DNA of 39,344 bases from a virus, in IMG/VR virus record IMGVR_UViG_3300021180_000028, positions 1 to 39,344 of that record, one strand, 5' to 3'. Below, one piece after another: positions 6,349 through 20,047 of this stretch; position 1 is the first letter of the stretch, and every line of letters begins with the position of its first letter. The position numbers were made by a program, and so were the translations under genes. The notes under the pieces are model-generated. The model worked only from the letters and a program-made list of their open reading frames with translations, had not been told where the DNA came from and made no database searches.

Positions 6349-6552
6349 GGCGCTTTTCGAGACTCGAACACGCGTTCGTCTCTTGGGTAATCCGACCCGG
6401 GGAGGGAATTGAGTCAGCAGGACGTCCTGCGTGGGAATGTCATAAAAAATCACCCTAAATTATGACATAGTACGATAAATCGTCTTTAATGGTGCTTTAA
6501 TGGTAAATATCGGACATATCGTATTATACCATCCTTTAATGGTACATAGCGT

Positions 6553-6609
6553 GCCATGGTGGGAATGTCATGCCATGGTGGGAATGTCATGCCATGGTGG
6601 GAATGTCGC
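6553..6609. repeat. Three tandem copies of a 19-bp unit
   Basis: The unit GCCATGGTGGGAATGTCAT is repeated three times head to tail (6553, 6572, 6591), the third diverging in its last bases. Each copy contains the palindrome CCATGG. GGGAATGTCAT also occurs once at 6433, and GGACATTCC appears in reverse at 6629. Confidence 0.9.
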
Positions 6610-6734
6610 ACAATGTCATGACATAACGGACATTCCACACTATGTCAGCATATAGCGTGACACTGCGCAGGTCGGCGGTCCGCGTGTCCGGTATGTCCTG
6701 ATATGTGCTGGTATGCGAGGTATGTCCGCAGTAG

Positions 6735-6746
6735 TGGTCTAGACCA
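6735..6746. repeat. 12-bp perfect palindrome
   Basis: TGGTCTAGACCA is a perfect palindrome centred on CTAG, 10 bases before the 22-bp array, whose units also centre near CTAG. Confidence 0.6.
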
Positions 6747-6756
6747 TACGACCGTC

Positions 6757-6910
6757 AGTAGTTAGCCTAGCTAACCATAGTAGTTAGCCTAGCTAACCAT
6801 AGTAGTTAGCCTAGCTAACCATAGTAGTTAGCCTAGCTAACCATAGTCGTTAGCCTAGCTAACCATAGTCGTTAGCCTAGCTAACCATAGTAGTTAGTTA
6901 GCCTAAGTAA
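6757..6910. repeat. Six-copy 22-bp iteron-like array, plus a decayed copy
   Basis: Six head-to-tail 22-bp units start at 6757, 6779, 6801, 6823, 6845 and 6867. Each contains the inverted repeat GTTAGC-CTA-GCTAAC. The first four are identical; the last two share one change (A to C at the fourth base). A degenerate seventh copy follows from 6889. A 22-bp period is about two helical turns, so the sites lie on one face of the DNA, as in iteron arrays bound by plasmid or phage initiator or partition proteins. Confidence 0.9.
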
Positions 6911-7209
6911 CGAATATGGCCGATGTCCGGAATGTCCGTATTGCAAGCAAACCACACCTATACGGTCGGCATTACCTACATACCGCGTATCCGCTGGTCA
7001 ACCGTACGATTAGAACAATCTAGCGAAGCCCCTTACACTATACCTGTACATGCTAGTACATGCCTGTAGGTTCAGCCCTGTGACCTGCGCGAATACACAA
7101 ACCGGACAAATGCTACGAAATTGACAGAATGCCGATAGGGTCATCCGCTACCCAGAACCGGGTTGAGTGCCTGAGAATCGCTCTCCGGACCGTACAGAGG
7201 GTATTGGGT

Positions 7210-7228
7210 GCTGACCTGCGAAAACGTC
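7210..7228. repeat. 19-bp inverted repeat, right arm
   Basis: GCTGACCTGCGAAAACGTC, exact reverse complement of 6330-6348. CTGAC before and GTCAG after the core also let this copy fold on itself (GCTGAC with GTCAGC), which the other copies do not share. Confidence 0.8.
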
Positions 7229-7381
7229 AGCAGCCGGATACCATATATCCCCGCAAACCCGGGCAAACCGGACAAATGCGAATTATGCGGGTAACTTGCC
7301 AGTAATGTAGACCGGATTTGGCGCGCCGACTAGGATCGGTGCCAGCACAACCCGCGCACCGATACGGAAGGATTCAAGATC

Positions 7382-7549
7382 ATGTCGATTCTAGGCCACA
7401 AGGTGATCGTTTTCAGCGATGCCGACTTCTCAGTCGCACTCACGCGCGCGAATGACCTGCTAGACCGTGGATACGAATTGGACGTCTACCCGCCCGAACG
7501 TGACGGTCTGGACAACTACGGGTTTACAGCACGCGCAGACGCGCGCTAG
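7382..7549 (+). CDS. Isolated small gene inside the repeat region (55 aa)
   Basis: A 55-codon frame starts at ATG with GGAAGG 12 bases upstream and ends just before a strong terminator. The product MSILGHKVIVFSDADFSVAL, then TRANDLLDRGYELDVYPPE, looks like a compact alpha/beta protein, with no recognised family. It stands alone between two repeat fields, so it is a monocistronic unit with its own promoter. It could be a regulator or protein that acts on the surrounding sites, but nothing in it is a known DNA-binding motif. The bases after its stop (GCTAGCCACCGCCC) recur exactly at 12339, after another small gene. Confidence 0.75.
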   Translation: MSILGHKVIVFSDADFSVALTRANDLLDRGYELDVYPPERDGLDNYGFTARADAR

Positions 7550-7558
7550 CCACCGCCC

Positions 7559-7598
7559 GCGCCGGCCCTTGGGATCGATCCCAAGGGCCGGCGCTTTT
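7559..7598 (+). terminator. Perfect 36-bp palindromic intrinsic terminator
   Basis: 7559-7594 is a perfect palindrome: an arm of 18 bases ending CCTTGGGATC followed directly by its reverse complement, then TTTT. The RNA would form a very stable hairpin with a four-base GATC-derived loop. It directly follows the isolated 55-codon gene and is among the strongest terminators in the window. Confidence 0.9.
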
Positions 7599-7603
7599 GC
7601 GTA

Positions 7604-7678
7604 CCCCGACCTGGTGGCCTGGTGGCCCCGACCTGGTGGCCCCGACCTGGTGGCCCCGACCTGGTGGCCTGGTGGCCC
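7604..7678. repeat. CCCGACCTGGTGGC repeat array
   Basis: Four copies of the 14-bp unit CCCGACCTGGTGGC. After the first and fourth copies an extra CTGGTGGC is inserted, giving a symmetrical pattern. It directly follows the palindromic terminator and is GC-rich, unlike the AT-richer arrays to the left. Confidence 0.85.
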
Positions 7679-7776
7679 TATGTCACGGAACGGTAACTTG
7701 CCTACCGGCTAGTAATTTAGAGAACGATTCTAAGCGGCTCAATACCGCGCGCGTGTCCGTGCCCGATCTCTCCCGA

Positions 7777-7809
7777 GTACGGTCCGCAGCGTGGCGCTCC
7801 GGACCGTAC
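7777..7809. repeat. 10-bp perfect inverted repeat
   Basis: GTACGGTCCG and CGGACCGTAC flank a 13-base spacer. The right arm is part of the 16-bp sequence that recurs at 7183-7198. Could be an RNA hairpin or an operator. Confidence 0.6.
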
Positions 7810-8493
7810 AGACGGCGTTGGGCGTTACCTCGCTACACACCAAATCACCTGGTCAGCTACCGAACGGCCGCATTTTCGCAGGTCAGACACAGTGTCAACG
7901 GTCGTTATCAACTCGTTACATCCAACATGGTGCACCTGGTGTACGGTTGGCCTTACAACTTCAATTACCCGACCGGCCGCCGGGCGGAACGTCGCCTGGC
8001 ATGTCGCAACCGATGCGCGTGTCTTGTGCTAGGTGTGGTCGGCAATGCTTGCGGTTTAGCCGCTAGCGTCTCGTTACGCAAGATGGGGAATGGGTAGGTC
8101 CTAGGGTCTACCGGTCTGAACCTTAATCGCCTCAACCGCGTATCGCCGCTAGTGCATTACATTGACATGATTGCGCGTGCATGATGTAAGGCAACGCGTA
8201 GCGAAGGGTAGCGTTACAGCGATAATCTGTACGGACCGCGCCTAGGCGCATACTTTGACCGACTGATTATCATCCGCGTATAGCTACCGCGATTACCTAG
8301 GTGTTCAAATAGGCAGGTTTATTCCAGTTGCCACCCACCTAGGGAAAGCGGTTAGTGCGGGTAACGTGAGAGTGTATAGCTACTGCCGGCGATACTGCAC
8401 ACACCATCATGGGGTACGCGACTAACCTCGTAATGAGTCGCCTCTGTTTCAGGAGTCGGACACACTGACCTTTGGACCCTAGAGATAAGCCGA

Positions 8494-8602
8494 CGATCAA
8501 TCGGAGTTGTGTACGCGAAAGCGATCAATCCGAGTTGTGTACGCGGTAACGATCAATCCGAGTTGTGGACGCGAATAGCGATCAATCGGAGTTGTGTACG
8601 TA
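8494..8602. repeat. Four-copy 24-bp array, 28-29 bp apart
   Basis: Units start at 8494, 8522, 8550 and 8579. Shared core: CGATCAATC, then C or G, then GAGTTGTGTACG. The outer copies have GGAG and the inner two have CGAG, so the array is symmetric in its variants. Gaps between units are only 4-5 bases. The array resembles iterons or a clustered operator. Confidence 0.9.
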
Positions 8603-8940
8603 TCTCGATACGGCTACACGCCGTATAACAGGCCAGAGTAATTACCGGACTGGCAACCCGGTAGTCAGAAGATGTTTCACTGAAATAGCCAATTCAAATC
8701 GTCACTTTTGAAAGTTTCGGACGTTAACTGAAACAGTCATTTTGCTTTAAGGATTCGGCAATAGACGTGTGACATTCGGACGGACGATTTAACCGGTCAC
8801 TTTCCGCGCTTGACGTGCTTGGAAACCTATTCAGTTAGGTATACAACAACAGCACGTGCGCCTAGCGCTTACGGTAACCACCTAATCGCCCGTCCGGACT
8901 ACGGACACAGGCAATGGGTTTAGACCCCACCGAATCCCCT

Positions 8941-9044
8941 AAGGGCCGGGATTGAACGTCGCATGAGTGATATAAGCCACGGGTAACGCTCCGTTGCGCT
9001 ATGCCCCGCGCTATCTCTCCTCATAAGCCTCAATTCCGGCCCTT
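8941..9044. repeat. 15-bp inverted repeat around 74 bases
   Basis: AAGGGCCGGGATTGA and TCAATTCCGGCCCTT pair with one mismatch, enclosing a segment with GATTGAAC and D-arm-like words. It ends 63 bases before the first gene of the rightward array. It may be a structured leader or an attenuator; a tRNA was considered and rejected. Confidence 0.6.
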
Positions 9045-9107
9045 GCAGACTGGCTACGGTGCTACCGCGATAACGCGTAAGCCGTAGCCTGTAAACGGAG
9101 GTATCAA

Positions 9108-9233
9108 ATGAGTCAGTTTCCGTCGCTAGCTAATCCCTGGCCAGAAATGGAAGCAATAGATGAGTTGCTTCCGAATATGCCGTATCTGGCCCCGACGTAC
9201 CCGCGCACGTCTCTGTGGGCATGGCGTCCGTAG
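9108..9233 (+). CDS. First gene of the rightward array (41 aa)
   Basis: Not recognised. CGGAGG lies 7 bases before the ATG, one of the better ribosome sites of this part. Product: MSQFPSLANPWPEMEAIDEL, then a Pro- and Trp-containing tail. Short and acidic at first. Confidence 0.6.
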   Translation: MSQFPSLANPWPEMEAIDELLPNMPYLAPTYPRTSLWAWRP

Positions 9234-9686: not shown

Positions 9687-9935
9687 ATGCCCATTACCGC
9701 TTTCTCTGACCCTGCCGAGATGACGCGCCGGCAGTACCGCACGTTCATCGGGCGGGTGTTCCCGGACACGCCACCTGGTGGCGTCCAAGTGCTCATAGAC
9801 GCGTTCACGGTGCGGGATTCCGCTGTCTGCACAGTGGATAGCGACACCACATACGTGATCCACGTAACCGCGCGGTCCGTCGCCAGTCGCCGGCCCACGC
9901 TTTGGGGGATCACCACCATAGCCACCATTTGGTGA
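9687..9935 (+). CDS. Small hypothetical protein (82 aa)
   Basis: Not recognised. ATG with GGGAAGG about 10 bases upstream. Starts MPITAFSDPAEMTRRQYRTF; the second half is beta-rich. Followed at once by the first start-associated repeat. Confidence 0.65.
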   Translation: MPITAFSDPAEMTRRQYRTFIGRVFPDTPPGGVQVLIDAFTVRDSAVCTVDSDTTYVIHVTARSVASRRPTLWGITTIATIW

Positions 9936-9940
9936 CGTGT

Positions 9941-9996
9941 CCGCCCATCGCTGGTAAGCCCAGACTGCCAACGCCAACAGCGGCACAAACGAGAGG
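9941..9996 (+). repeat. Start-associated repeat 1 (type A)
   Basis: First of five near-identical elements of about 55 bp between genes. Conserved order: CGCCCATCG, GCTGGTAAGCCCAGACTGCC, AACGCCAACAGCGGCAC, then GAGAGG as ribosome site 8 bases before the ATG of the next gene. CGCTGG and CCAACG can pair with one mismatch, extended by T-G and A-T. Confidence 0.9.
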
Positions 9997-10004
9997 ATTC
10001 GCGA

Positions 10005-10277
10005 ATGACCAGGAACGCGCGCATAGTGAGACTTACCACGCCCATGCCGAGACGGCCGGAATACCGCGTCACGGACGCGGACGGCAACGTCATCACGCGG
10101 GGAAGCACTGTCACGGACTTTCGCGGCGACGTCGCGACCTTTGACCTGGTGACGCGCGGACCGGAGTACAACGGCACTGCAAGGGTGTGCGTCACATGGG
10201 ATGACGGCAAACCGTCCGAATACACGCAAGAATACTACGCCAACGTCTTTGACCTTACGGTCGTTACCGTCGCCTAG
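10005..10277 (+). CDS. Small hypothetical protein (90 aa)
   Basis: Not recognised. Beta-rich: RVTDADGNVITRGSTVTDFR, then ARVCVTWDDGKPSEY and a hydrophobic end (VFDLTVVTVA). It resembles small single-domain beta-barrel proteins common in actinobacterial mobile elements. Translation start sits 8 bases after the GAGAGG of a start-associated repeat. Confidence 0.75.
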   Translation: MTRNARIVRLTTPMPRRPEYRVTDADGNVITRGSTVTDFRGDVATFDLVTRGPEYNGTARVCVTWDDGKPSEYTQEYYANVFDLTVVTVA

Positions 10278-10288
10278 AGCGAGTGTCT

Positions 10289-10342
10289 GCCTATCGCTGG
10301 TAAGCCCAGACTGCCAACGCCAACAGCGGCACAAACGAGAGG
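10289..10342 (+). repeat. Start-associated repeat 2 (type A)
   Basis: Matches copy 1 almost base for base from ATCGCTGG to GAGAGG; one difference at the start (CCTATCG for CCCATCG). ATG follows 9 bases after GAGAGG. Confidence 0.9.
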
Positions 10343-10351
10343 TAATCCAAA

Positions 10352-10639
10352 ATGAGCATCTACCGATCAACCGAAGTGCTAGCGGCGGGCGTCAACCTAA
10401 ATGACGCGTGCACTGAACTGCTGTCACAGACGCACGGGCTGACGGACTTCAAACTCACAATCGATGAAGTCATAGACATAATGAACGCCGCGCTTATCGG
10501 CGAAAAGACGCACACTCCCGCGCGTTACACCGTGCCCAACGCACCGAACGTGGAATACGAGGTAACGGCGTATTTCGTCAACCCGCCTTTCCCGTTCTGT
10601 GACCAGTTCCTGTACAACGTCATCCGCAACCTGATCTGA
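10352..10639 (+). CDS. Small hypothetical protein (95 aa)
   Basis: Not recognised. N-terminal helical half (VNLNDACTELLSQTHGLTDF) and a C-terminal part with an aromatic cluster (AYFVNPPFPFCDQFLY). Uses CTA leucine codons, typical of this segment but rare later in the window. Confidence 0.7.
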   Translation: MSIYRSTEVLAAGVNLNDACTELLSQTHGLTDFKLTIDEVIDIMNAALIGEKTHTPARYTVPNAPNVEYEVTAYFVNPPFPFCDQFLYNVIRNLI

Positions 10640-10651
10640 GGAGACACGGCC

Positions 10652-10849
10652 ATGCCGGTAAGCAGAATGATATGGGTAGCCAATGCCGAGAGATCACACG
10701 TCGCCACCGCCGGCGAACTAGGCGTCATGGTAGCGGCGACGGTCACGGACGGTCCGGCTAGCGTCAAAGGCCGAAAGGCTATCATCACCCTAGACGCGGC
10801 TACCGTTGCCGAGATCACCCGCCTCTGGGCGGACAAAGACGCCAAATAG
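10652..10849 (+). CDS. Small hypothetical protein (65 aa)
   Basis: Not recognised. ATG with GAGGAG 11 bases upstream. Beta-rich start (MPVSRMIWVANAERSHVATA), then TLDAATVAEITRLWADKDAK, probably a C-terminal helix. Confidence 0.7.
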   Translation: MPVSRMIWVANAERSHVATAGELGVMVAATVTDGPASVKGRKAIITLDAATVAEITRLWADKDAK

Positions 10850-10852
10850 GGT

Positions 10853-10908
10853 CGCCCATCGGGAGTAAGTCTGGACTGCCCCCGCCAACAGCGGCACCAA
10901 TCGAGAGG
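10853..10908 (+). repeat. Start-associated repeat 3 (type B)
   Basis: Same frame as copies 1 and 2 but with ATCGGGAGTAAGTCTGGACT, then GCCCCCGCCAACAGCGGCAC. The changes fall in the proposed stem: a T-A pair becomes G-C and a C-A mismatch becomes G-C, while one G-C becomes A-C. The middle CCCAGA becomes TCTGGA. Confidence 0.9.
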
Positions 10909-10915
10909 ATTCACA

Positions 10916-11131
10916 ATGACTGCCTACCGGGCCGGCAACGGCAAATTCGTATCGCGCGATAACCCCGTAGCGGTTATCGGCAAACTCAATGCCCGCAAGC
11001 AAGCGGAACGGGCAGAGAGCGAACGTAAGGCTATGGAAGCGCGCAAGCGTAACGCGCGCCGGCGCGGCTACTCCGGTCCGCTCACGCGTGCGGAACTAGC
11101 CGCACAAGGCTACGTGCCTACGGTCAGGTAA
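10916..11131 (+). CDS. Small very basic protein (71 aa)
   Basis: Not recognised. The central helix is dominated by Arg, Lys, Ala and Glu (ARKQAERAESERKAMEARKR), followed by RRGYSGPLTRAELAAQGY. A nucleic-acid or ribosome-associated role is possible, from charge alone. Start is set by a start-associated repeat. Confidence 0.7.
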   Translation: MTAYRAGNGKFVSRDNPVAVIGKLNARKQAERAESERKAMEARKRNARRRGYSGPLTRAELAAQGYVPTVR

Positions 11132-11146
11132 GGGAGACTAGACGCC

Positions 11147-11299
11147 ATGACTGCCCCGGTTACGCGATTCAGCCGCACGGCGCTGTACCGTGCGATGCAA
11201 CGCGATGACGACTACCCAGACCCCCGCGCGCGGTCCGTCCGCAAGCGCGCCACCCGACGTATGGTCCGCAAGGCCACGCCGCAAGAGAGCGGGAAGTAG
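11147..11299 (+). CDS. Small basic protein (50 aa)
   Basis: Not recognised. AGGGAG lies 11 bases before the ATG. Arg-rich C-terminal half (RSVRKRATRRMVRKATPQ). Follows another basic protein gene after 15 bases. Confidence 0.6.
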   Translation: MTAPVTRFSRTALYRAMQRDDDYPDPRARSVRKRATRRMVRKATPQESGK

Positions 11300-11303
11300 C
11301 GAC

Positions 11304-11540
11304 ATGCCAGGAACGGACGCGTGGTATGACGACGCCAGTTACGCGCGCTATCAAGCCGATACCGGCGACGATATCGTGACCGTGCCTTACGACCCCACGC
11401 GCGGCGAGAACCCCGCCGGGGAGGATTGCCCGTGGTGCCTGGACCCAGACAGTGATGTCATACCGGAGGATACCGACGACGCGGCTTACCTTCTCTGCCT
11501 TACTCACCTGCTGGAATATACGGGAGAATCACGCTCATGA
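11304..11540 (+). CDS. Small zinc-ribbon-like protein (78 aa)
   Basis: Not a named family. CPWC followed about 25 residues later by LLCLTHLLEY gives a CxxC...CxxH pattern. This recalls short actinobacterial zinc ribbons, here acidic rather than basic. Four-base overlap with the next gene. Confidence 0.7.
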   Translation: MPGTDAWYDDASYARYQADTGDDIVTVPYDPTRGENPAGEDCPWCLDPDSDVIPEDTDDAAYLLCLTHLLEYTGESRS

Positions 11541-11818
11541 AAACCGGAATACCGCTCACGCCGGACATGATCCAAGCGGCCATTCACGCGCTAAAGGAGG
11601 ATGGCTATCACGTGGCAACGTGGCGCAACGCCGCAAAGCGCGCGGCGTGTACGTCCGATGCCGACCTTCCCGCAGACTGGGTGACGGCGACCAATGAGGC
11701 GAAAAAGATTGAAGCGCGTGCCGCTGGTATCCTCGCGGAACTAGCGCGGCTAGCGCCCGATCGTATGGCCGAAGCCGTAACGGCTTACAGCTACGCACTG
11801 CACGCGAACGCGTCTTGA
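11537..11818 (+). CDS. Small helical protein (93 aa)
   Basis: Not recognised. Mostly helical: TPDMIQAAIHALKEDGYHVA and EARAAGILAELARLAPDRMA. Could be a small DNA-binding or adaptor protein; no motif proves it. Start overlaps the zinc-ribbon gene (ATGA). Confidence 0.7.
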   Translation: MKTGIPLTPDMIQAAIHALKEDGYHVATWRNAAKRAACTSDADLPADWVTATNEAKKIEARAAGILAELARLAPDRMAEAVTAYSYALHANAS

Positions 11819-11821
11819 TCA

Positions 11822-11880
11822 CCGCCCATCGCTGGTAAGCCCAGACTGCCAACGCCAACAGCGGCACACCAAACGAGAGG
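11822..11880 (+). repeat. Start-associated repeat 4 (type A)
   Basis: Type A copy starting 4 bases after a stop codon, with three extra bases (ACC) between CGGCAC and AAACGAGAGG. ATG 8 bases after GAGAGG. Confidence 0.9.
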
Positions 11881-11888
11881 TTACAGAA

Positions 11889-12164
11889 ATGCTGATCACT
11901 CCCAAGCTCGATACCTACAATGCCGGATATCAGATTATCGCGGCTACCCCCGTATCGGTAGGCGAATACGTCGTCATGGGAATGGACCCTGCCGGTAATT
12001 GCGTCACGTGGCGAACGCACGCCCATGACCGCTATGCGTCCTACTATTCAGGCCGCTACTTCCCTGTCTTCCGCGCCGACACGGACGATTGCGCGTTTGA
12101 CCGCGCGCGGCGAGACATGGCGGAACGCGCCGGAATCTGGCTGAACCTTCCCCTTAGCAAGTAA
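11889..12164 (+). CDS. Small hypothetical protein (91 aa)
   Basis: Not recognised. Beta-rich with aromatic residues (YQIIAATPVSVGEYVVMG; RYASYYSGRYFPVF) and a helical end with two Cys overall. Start defined by start-associated repeat 4. Confidence 0.7.
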   Translation: MLITPKLDTYNAGYQIIAATPVSVGEYVVMGMDPAGNCVTWRTHAHDRYASYYSGRYFPVFRADTDDCAFDRARRDMAERAGIWLNLPLSK

Positions 12165-12169
12165 CCGCC

Positions 12170-12343
12170 ATGAGCCGCATCATGTTTCTCTCTCTGCTAG
12201 CCGGCCTGTTTCTTCTCATGTTTGCGGCAGGGTTGCTAACAGGCCGCACAATGCCCCGCCCGGCATCGCGCACGGCACAAATCCAAGTATGCGCTTACTC
12301 TGACAACGGTCAGGTCTACCTGTACACAGCAGCACACTGCTAG
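12170..12343 (+). CDS. One-helix membrane or exported protein (57 aa)
   Basis: The N-terminus MSRIMFLSLLAGLFLLMFAA is a signal anchor or signal peptide, followed by a short polar domain with two Cys (VCAY and AHC at the end) that could form a disulfide outside the cell. No good ribosome site; the start is five bases after the preceding stop. Confidence 0.6.
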   Translation: MSRIMFLSLLAGLFLLMFAAGLLTGRTMPRPASRTAQIQVCAYSDNGQVYLYTAAHC

Positions 12344-12346
12344 CCA

Positions 12347-12402
12347 CCGCCCATCGGGAGTAAGTCTGGACTGCCCCCGCCAACAGCGGCACAAAACGAG
12401 AG
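12347..12402 (+). repeat. Start-associated repeat 5 (type B)
   Basis: Type B copy matching repeat 3 through its core. It begins within the same GCTAGCCACCGCCC sequence that precedes the palindromic terminator at 7.55 kb. ATG follows 8 bases after GAGAGG. Confidence 0.9.
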
Positions 12403-12410
12403 GTAATCCA

Positions 12411-12749
12411 ATGACAGCACTGCACCCTAGCGACACGCTAGCCAATCTCGCGAAAGCGTTCCCCGCCGGCGTAAAGGGCAAACTGCCCGTGGACAGTTAC
12501 CACGCGCGTCCGACACGTATCGTGATCCTGCCGCGTGGCGCGGCGGGGTACCCAACCCCCTACGCGCTATGCAAGCGCACGCTCAACAAGCGGTCGTTCT
12601 ATGAGGCTACGTGGCTCGACACGGGCAACGTAGGCCGCTTCACGAGCAAGCGTGACGCGACGGCGTTCCTGGACATGCATCGTTACGCGGTGGGTTACCG
12701 CCGGATTACCGGCGAACTGCCCACGTGGGCATCGGAGTACGCGCGATGA
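12411..12749 (+). CDS. Hypothetical protein (112 aa)
   Basis: Not recognised. Basic and mixed alpha/beta, with a conserved-looking block FYEATWLDTGNVGRFTSKRD. Start set by start-associated repeat 5. Overlaps the next gene by four bases. Confidence 0.75.
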   Translation: MTALHPSDTLANLAKAFPAGVKGKLPVDSYHARPTRIVILPRGAAGYPTPYALCKRTLNKRSFYEATWLDTGNVGRFTSKRDATAFLDMHRYAVGYRRITGELPTWASEYAR

Positions 12750-13048: not shown

Positions 13049-13062
13049 AGAGAGGCGAGAAC

Positions 13063-13335
13063 ATGGCTACCATGCACGTATCCGAGATCACTATCGAGCG
13101 GGACAGTCCCGAAACGGACACGCCGCTCGCTATCAACCTGCCCGATGGGCGTCAGCTAGTCCTGTACGCTAGCGGGCACTTCACTGTGAGGCTTCCCCTC
13201 TATGCAGGGGACAAAGCGGCAGAGACGGAAAGGCCGGCGGAGATAGACATCGTACTACCCGTGCCGGCGGATCTTTCCTCGTGCTGTAACGAGGAAACAG
13301 GGGACTTCACTATCACTGCCTGGCATCGGCACTAG
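13063..13335 (+). CDS. Small beta-rich protein (90 aa)
   Basis: Not recognised. Alternating hydrophobic pattern (INLPDGRQLVLYASGHFTV; EIDIVLPVPADLSS) suggests a beta-barrel. Preceded by GAGAGGCGAGAAC, a ribosome-site block repeated exactly before the next gene. Confidence 0.7.
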   Translation: MATMHVSEITIERDSPETDTPLAINLPDGRQLVLYASGHFTVRLPLYAGDKAAETERPAEIDIVLPVPADLSSCCNEETGDFTITAWHRH

Positions 13336-13347
13336 AGAGGCGAGAAC

Positions 13348-13695
13348 ATGTCGAGATATTTCGCAACTGCGCAGAATGGGCGCGGCAACAACGTCAGCCT
13401 AGGCGGGCGGAGTAACGCCGGCCCGATCCATCTCAGAGGATGGGATGCCGGCGTGAAGGTGATTCCGGTCACGGACAAAAACCAGCCGGATACCCTCCTG
13501 ATCTACATGACGTGGGGGTCGCACGCGGCGGGCAGTGACATCCTCATCGGGCGGGTGGTCAGCACGCCGGACGGACCGGAATTCGTGCGGGAGTCTCCCG
13601 ACGACACGGGAGGGGACATGGCAACATCCATCTTTACCCCGGACGCGCGGAGTGACCGAATCCCGGACACCGCCTATCACCCCGGACACCCGTAA
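13348..13695 (+). CDS. Hypothetical protein (115 aa)
   Basis: Not recognised. Starts MSRYFATAQNGRGNNVSLGG with beta strands such as DTLLIYMTWGSHAA. Shares the GAGAGGCGAGAAC leader with the gene before it. Confidence 0.7.
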   Translation: MSRYFATAQNGRGNNVSLGGRSNAGPIHLRGWDAGVKVIPVTDKNQPDTLLIYMTWGSHAAGSDILIGRVVSTPDGPEFVRESPDDTGGDMATSIFTPDARSDRIPDTAYHPGHP

Positions 13696-19583: not shown

Positions 19584-19832
19584 ACAGCACCCGAAAGCGG
19601 CTGGAATACTTGCGCGGCGAAATCCGGGCCGAACGCATAAGCTACAGCGAAATCGCGGAACTGCAATCCCTGACCGCGCACATAGACGCCGACGACGCCG
19701 AACTGCTCCAGTGGGCCGACCCAGATGGCTTGCGGGGCAAGCCGTGAATCCCGAAGTAGCCGAATGGCTTCATTCACCCGAAGGGGAAGAATGGTCGCGG
19801 CGGCGGCCTGTACCGCACGCCGAACCACCCGT
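19553..19832 (+). repeat. 29-bp direct repeat (19553-19581 and 19804-19832)
   Basis: The two identical copies begin CGGCCTGTACCGCACGCCGA. The first encodes the C-terminus GLYRTPNHP of the 152-residue protein; the second is read in another frame as RPVPHAEPPV in the 81-residue protein. Confidence 0.9.
19580..19747 (+). CDS. Small helical protein (55 aa)
   Basis: Not recognised. Charged coiled helix (TRKRLEYLRGEIRAERISYS). GTGA overlaps on both ends. Its final codons (GLRGKP) belong to a 78-bp duplication that recurs at the end of the next gene. Confidence 0.7.
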   Translation: MNSTRKRLEYLRGEIRAERISYSEIAELQSLTAHIDADDAELLQWADPDGLRGKP

Positions 19833-20047
19833 AATGCAATACGCCATCACCCTGGACGTCCCGCCGGACGAATCAGGCGAGGTTGAGGCGACGGTAGACC
19901 ACCCAAGCGGGGAACAGTCCCACTGGGCAGCGCCTTCGGTCCTGGCAGTCCTGGCCTGCATCGCAGATAGCTTGCGGGGTAAGCCGTGAATCCCGAAGTA
20001 GCCGAATGGCTTCATTCCCCCGAAGGGGAAGAATGGTCGCGGCGGCG
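19728..20047 (+). repeat. 78-bp direct repeat (19728-19805 and 19970-20047)
   Basis: Two copies 242 bases apart differ at two positions. Each spans a gene junction: a hairpin GCTTGC-GGG-GCAAGC, a GTGA overlap and the first 21 codons of the next gene. One of the differences is C to T inside the hairpin, which still pairs as G-T. A second fold (CATTC, CCCC, GAA loop, GGGG, GAATG) is also present. Confidence 0.95.
19744..19989 (+). CDS. Composite small protein (81 aa), duplicated N-terminus
   Basis: Not recognised. The first 21 residues (NPEVAEWLHSPEGEEWSRRR) are shared with the next gene. Residues 22-31 come from the 29-bp duplication read out of frame. The rest (MQYAITLDVPPDESGEVEAT) looks like an independent small beta protein, which could once have started at its internal ATG. 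Confidence 0.7.
   Translation: MNPEVAEWLHSPEGEEWSRRRPVPHAEPPVMQYAITLDVPPDESGEVEATVDHPSGEQSHWAAPSVLAVLACIADSLRGKP

Follow-up and report, generated by a model that had tools for sequence, protein, structure and literature searches.

The stretch of DNA analyzed here (the window) comprises the 39,344 bases of an IMG/VR virus record and probably represents a fragment of a larger uncultured phage genome. Among its gene products are a family A DNA polymerase, a Ku-like protein, an HNH endonuclease and a LysM/transglycosylase protein, along with many small proteins belonging to no family. The only close relatives found for it, at polymerase identities of approximately 60%, were two IMG/VR contigs (181 and 163 kb in length). 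A search for further relatives with the polymerase alignment returned the same two contigs (181 and 163 kb) and nothing more, and a pattern scan with the proteins of genes g2 and g5 (see below) and a 403-aa DUF3631 protein found no relatives. Known phages gave weak matches, mostly to actinophages, and homologues of Ku, DNA polymerase I and the product of gene g1 were found mostly in phages of Mycobacterium, Microbacterium, Arthrobacter, Streptomyces and Gordonia. Judged from these sequence matches, the window phage probably infects actinobacteria.

Five near-identical elements lie between positions 9942 and 12403, all on the plus strand and each in front of a small gene, and their two sequence types follow each other in the order A, A, B, A, B. 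Element E1 (type A; 9942-9996), counted with the Shine-Dalgarno (SD) sequence GAGAGG at 9991-9996, follows a TGA stop codon at 9933-9935 and precedes the ATG at 10005 of gene g1 (10005-10277; 90 aa, family phrog_35924), whose homologues occur in the relatives G001 and G002 and in Gordonia Ronaldovirus phages. E2 (10288-10342; SD at 10337-10342), a type A copy with TGCCT replacing CGCCC, leads g2 (10352-10639; 95 aa), and E3 (type B; 10853-10908; SD at 10903-10908) leads g3 (10916-11131; 71 aa). The last two are E4 (type A; 11823-11880; SD at 11875-11880) before g4 (11889-12164; 91 aa) and E5 (type B; 12348-12403; SD at 12398-12403) before g5 (12411-12749; 112 aa). Relatives of the element-led genes were searched for and found for g1 only, with none for g2, g4 and g5 and no significant family for g3. 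The cassettes headed by the five elements comprise 1, 2, 4, 2 and at least 2 genes, respectively.

The elements are a real, position-specific repeat that is not due to chance. The window contains exactly five occurrences of the 15-mer CGCCAACAGCGGCAC and, when up to three mismatches were allowed, 12 matches to it, a total that no shuffle reached. A nhmmer profile built from the elements recovered exactly these five copies in the window (E values of 1.7e-18 to 1.8e-17, with the next match at E=2), and a covariance model of the elements agreed with this result. The proteins encoded downstream were mutually dissimilar, with a best BLASTP E value of 0.4. A preliminary description of this DNA had noted five near-identical start-associated elements in front of unrelated genes, and the profile search, the 15-mer count and the protein comparison bear out both observations.

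The placement of the elements is strict. Distances from the upstream stop codon to the start of the element (CGCCC or TGCCT) are 3-10 nt, those from the end of the element core to GAGAGG are 4-7 nt, and those from GAGAGG to the ATG are 7-9 nt in all five copies. The gaps before the element-led genes measure 66-74 nt, whereas the remaining genes in the block are spaced by -4 to 15 nt, and all five elements sit in the approximately 3% of gene-block positions that have room for 45 nt between genes. GAGAGG is also the ordinary SD sequence of this phage, and the starts at 13050 and 13335 use it without an element; the element proper is thus the stretch of approximately 45 nt upstream of GAGAGG. This refines the initial description of a 55-bp unit ending in GAGAGG. 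The 16-nt start context of the genes at 13050 and 13335 is the same, GAGAGGCGAGAACATG (13050-13065 and 13335-13350). In relative G002, the g1 homologue reads TAA-CTGAGAGGTACGACC-ATG and starts 15 nt after the stop codon, with GAGAGG present and the element missing. Since this homologue has the SD sequence alone, the element is an insert of about 50 nt between stop codon and SD sequence, as judged from this single comparable homologous gene.

Types A and B differ at eight positions within ATCG...GGCAC, which are grouped in three blocks. On the 3' side of GAGAGG, TAATCCA is common to E2 (type A) and E5 (type B), and ATTC.C is common to E1 (type A) and E3 (type B). The flanks are thus sorted across the two types, which makes exchange inside the invariant core likely; the reassorted flanks are the pattern that exchange between copies would leave. 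This lends some support to an earlier suggestion that the elements are recombination seams. Given the near identity of the five copies, their conservation cannot tell selection from recent copying.

The stem that had been proposed within the elements can be formed as described, with seven of eight pairs in type A and seven of eight in type B, and it is enclosed by an outer helix, YYGC/GCGG. The accompanying suggestion of a partly conserved structure, or RNA switch, was not supported. Single copies folded no better than their dinucleotide shuffles (z from -1.0 to +0.7), and the retention of pairs between types A and B was at chance level, being matched by random substitutions at the same sites with P of ~0.20 and at random sites with P of ~0.11. 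RNAalifold on column shuffles gave 53/500 and 112/500, such that consensus folding was not significant, and the Rfam covariance models, riboswitches included, did not match the elements. With two sequence types only, no covariation test can decide. The RNA-structure argument for the elements is weak.

Signals that would act at the DNA level were also sought. A TAnnnT box was absent from four of the five copies and from the conserved part of the fifth, and no TTGnnn box lay in the conserved part of any copy. Matches of the region to the sigma-70-like (SigA-like -35/-10) promoter consensus were at chance level, and none fell on an element. The conserved parts of E1 and E3 contained no inverted repeat of at least 6 bp, imperfect 17-bp inverted repeats being sought there only through exact 6-bp seeds, and the short dyads that can be read from the sequence differ between types A and B. 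With neither a conserved dyad nor a sigma-70-like box, the operator reading of the preliminary description is unsupported, although the elements may still be a non-standard DNA site for a phage-specific factor. T4-type phages carry cassettes in which an early promoter and a stem-loop lie between shuffled genes. Host promoters or terminators were rejected for the elements, as predictions were at chance level with none on an element. An upstream open reading frame was likewise rejected, as a frame ending in TAA (GTAAG) is present in all copies but its start codon is inconsistent, and so was a coding role, as E1, although in frame with g1, lacks a start codon and E2 is not in frame.

Searches for copies elsewhere were negative. 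Neither the element nor degenerate copies of it were found in G001 and G002, the two distant relatives; three patterns run against IMG/VR gave no copies beyond scattered single chance matches; the phage collection, distant blastn included, held no copies beyond chance; matches in a scan of GTDB contigs did not exceed chance; and a search of 395 actinobacterial genomes, run without a positive control, found none. The preliminary description had held that many copies before unrelated starts, with covariation, would support an RNA element, and that copies in the window alone together with a lack of covariation would refute its reading. For the collections searched, the outcome comes close to the latter, but these collections include only two distant relatives and the window is fragmentary.

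Start-associated repeats recur in actinophages and have been described in clusters K, DJ, DR and EF (PMC3203893, PMC11373665, PMC12699233, PMC9671010, PMC9753669, PMC9302106, PMC12859693). Cluster K mycobacteriophages carry SAS and ESAS repeats (PMC3203893, PMC11373665, PMC12699233), the ESAS being a 46-47 bp sequence directly before the SAS/RBS that is described as promoter-bearing (PMC11373665). Like these, the window elements are repeats of approximately 50 bp before the starts of unrelated small non-structural genes in one main orientation. They differ in having no GGGATAGGAGCCC motif and no SigA-like -10/-35 boxes, in that no 17-bp inverted repeat was found, and in their spread, all five being packed into a single 2.4-kb block of the 39-kb fragment, compared with copies over a 60-kb genome in cluster K. 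The 13-bp SAS GGGATAGGAGCCC, searched in the window with up to two deviations, gave two matches, none near the elements, for a chance level of 1.34. The likeness in placement to cluster K and the difference in sequence, both noted initially, were thus confirmed.

In Gordonia cluster DJ, repeats lie upstream of ATG starts (PMC9753669), and phage Vardy has a 50-bp intergenic motif with TATAAT that was proposed as a promoter (PMC9671010). This family resembles that of the window in having five copies of an approximately 50-bp intergenic repeat, grouped in one genome region and placed before ATG starts, whereas the TATAAT of the DJ motif has no counterpart in the window element. For cluster EF, a 12-bp motif has been reported (PMC12859693), and Gordonia cluster DR phage CaiB has repeated intergenic regions with GAGAGGAC (PMC9302106). 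The DR repeats also precede several gene starts and share the SD word GAGAGG with the window, but they carry a leader hairpin as well as promoter-like boxes that overlap an inverted repeat. Read by eye in CaiB, NHagos and Yago84, TTGCGC-17-TAnnnT overlaps the ACAACACC/GGTGTTGT inverted repeat, and the GCGGG/CCCGC leader hairpin lies 3' of both. Such features make it probable that some start-associated repeats are promoters. The DR repeats showed no significant match to the window elements. In the broad sense of near-identical copies directly before unrelated starts in the same orientation, the window elements belong with these repeats; judged by placement, they are a new sequence family of an already known kind, with no sequence or box in common with those tested.

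All g1 homologues in the phage collection belong to Gordonia Ronaldovirus phages, Fryberger 71 being one of them. In Fryberger, Ronaldo, Guey18, Ziko and Volt, about ten consecutive small genes each have a leader of 74-88 nt, in which a long hairpin is followed by a second hairpin before an A/G-rich SD sequence (GAGAGAGG in most). Gordonia phage Keelan has such leaders too. In a covariation scan of an alignment of 15 distinct leaders, the top covarying helix joined a 5' strand overlapping or following the upstream stop codon to the loop of the pre-SD hairpin, forming a pseudoknot. When loops were permuted amongst the leaders, the observed pairing was reached in 0 of 2000 permutations. Across the three helices, 76.8% of cells pair, compared with 31-50% in slid versions. 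Of the 21 pairs, 19 are altered at both positions in some sequence, and the score for covariation was 0.498 against a shuffled mean of 0.244. One Fryberger stretch had no credible match in Rfam, no published description of these structured leaders was found in the literature, and 297 actinobacterial genomes, scanned without a positive control, contained no leaders of this type.

The window elements share with the Ronaldovirus leaders their occurrence in a series of small genes and a position bounded by a stop codon on one side and an A/G-rich SD sequence on the other, in addition to the homology of g1 and Fryberger 71. They differ in that the Ronaldovirus leaders vary and covary, with three helices including a pseudoknot, whereas the window elements are nearly invariant. 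The Ronaldovirus covariance models R1 and R2 did not match the structured part of any window element, and for this reason homology is not claimed; with covariance models run in both directions, the best matches rested on the SD sequence.

We favor, with a probability of roughly 0.4, a reading of the elements as start-associated leader repeats, that is, cis-acting sequences of approximately 45 nt that act in the mRNA and control a set of small genes. The element, placed between a stop codon and the next SD sequence, would head five small cassettes in a rightward operon of a large phage and, within a polycistronic mRNA, would form the 5' leader of each of these cassettes. There it may serve as a common handle for an RNA-binding protein of phage or host, for a processing cut or for a weak fold beside the SD sequence, such that the cassette genes would be translated as a set, partly independently of the preceding gene. 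The feature recognized would probably be the kept sequence and not a particular fold. Arguing for this reading are the sense-strand orientation of all five copies, the SD spacing, the 66-74 nt gaps, the SD sequence standing alone in G002 and the lack of a host-type promoter in or near the copies, and the covarying Ronaldovirus leaders on the g1 homologue and its neighbors offer a precedent at the RNA level. Arguing against it are folds no better than shuffles and the lack of matches to the Ronaldovirus models or Rfam. The description of the ESAS and the DJ motif as promoter-bearing also counts against it, as it points to a role at the DNA level (PMC11373665, PMC9671010). Such a role, in which a sigma factor, polymerase or repressor encoded by the phage would recognize an internal promoter or operator repeated before each cassette, as in the promoter-bearing repeats of clusters K, DJ and DR, is somewhat unlikely: the length and placement of the elements equal those of the ESAS (PMC11373665) and of the 50-bp DJ motif (PMC9671010), and the DR boxes over an inverted repeat, read by eye, also speak for it, but the conserved part of the window elements has neither these boxes nor an inverted repeat of 6 bp or more, promoter matches are at chance and off the elements, the short dyads change between types, and an operator would need neither a single orientation nor a position beside the SD sequence.

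We consider it unlikely that the repeat has little or no regulatory role and spreads and persists as shared homology through which recombination between copies swaps small-gene cassettes. The flanks that E2 shares with E5 and E1 with E3 fit such a process, as does a second gene-boundary repeat in the same rightward gene run (84 nt at 96% identity, 19722/19964), whereas a function is suggested by the strict stop-to-SD placement, the constancy of the SD distance and the near identity of the core, and all five copies lie within 2.4 kb with none in the other 37 kb. A bistable RNA switch, in which helices P0+P1 (YYGC/GCGG enclosing CGNNGGTA/TGCCNNCG) free the SD sequence and an alternative helix, CC..TCG/CGA..GG, covers it, appears very improbable. 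In E1, E2 and E3, the energy of P0+P1 comes to within 0.1-0.2 kcal/mol of the minimum, 91.7% of its cells pair compared with at most 60% in slid versions (9 of 500 shuffles reach 91.7%), and the SD-covering helix was itself proposed by RNAalifold. Set against this, single-sequence energies equal those of shuffles, the alifold column shuffles (53/500 and 112/500) and the A/B pair retention (P ~0.2) are as given above, and P1 exceeds the minimum by 1.6 kcal/mol in E4 and by 4.1 kcal/mol in E5. We also give a low probability to the proposal that the window element and the Ronaldovirus leaders form an undescribed class of actinophage start-associated leader RNAs, the former as a compact relative or by convergence, in which a strand at the upstream stop codon would pair with the pre-SD segment (P0 or the pseudoknot) and a terminating ribosome would open the next leader.

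Phages often carry many small genes of unknown function, and little is known of how such genes are controlled as sets. Small genes under joint control are marked by start-associated repeats, which may also be points of recombination, and the window family, with two subtypes and visible flank reassortment, provides a further test case. Following the g1 homologue additionally led to a leader RNA supported by covariation in Gordonia phages.

Other repeats were observed in the window. The 84-nt repeat (19722-19805 and 19964-20047) spans the end of one gene (..LRGKP and its stop) and the start of the next (VNPEVAEWLHSPEGEEWSRRR); it is coding, with stop and start overlapping. Positions 6372-9108 form a mostly non-coding 2.7 kb that separates leftward from rightward genes and contains an array of 22-bp units with GTTAGCCTAGCTAAC hairpins (6757-6888), 14-bp repeats (7604-7678), four 28-bp repeats (8494-8606) and a perfect 16-bp terminator-like hairpin (7559-7594). 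In the relatives, AGTTA-rich repeats lie near the corresponding ends of their records. The 2.7-kb stretch is possibly an origin or genome-end region. The identical 14 bases GCTAGCCACCGCCC, whose TAG is the stop codon of a gene, occur ahead of the terminator-like hairpin at 7559 (7545-7558) and again ahead of element E5 (12339-12352).
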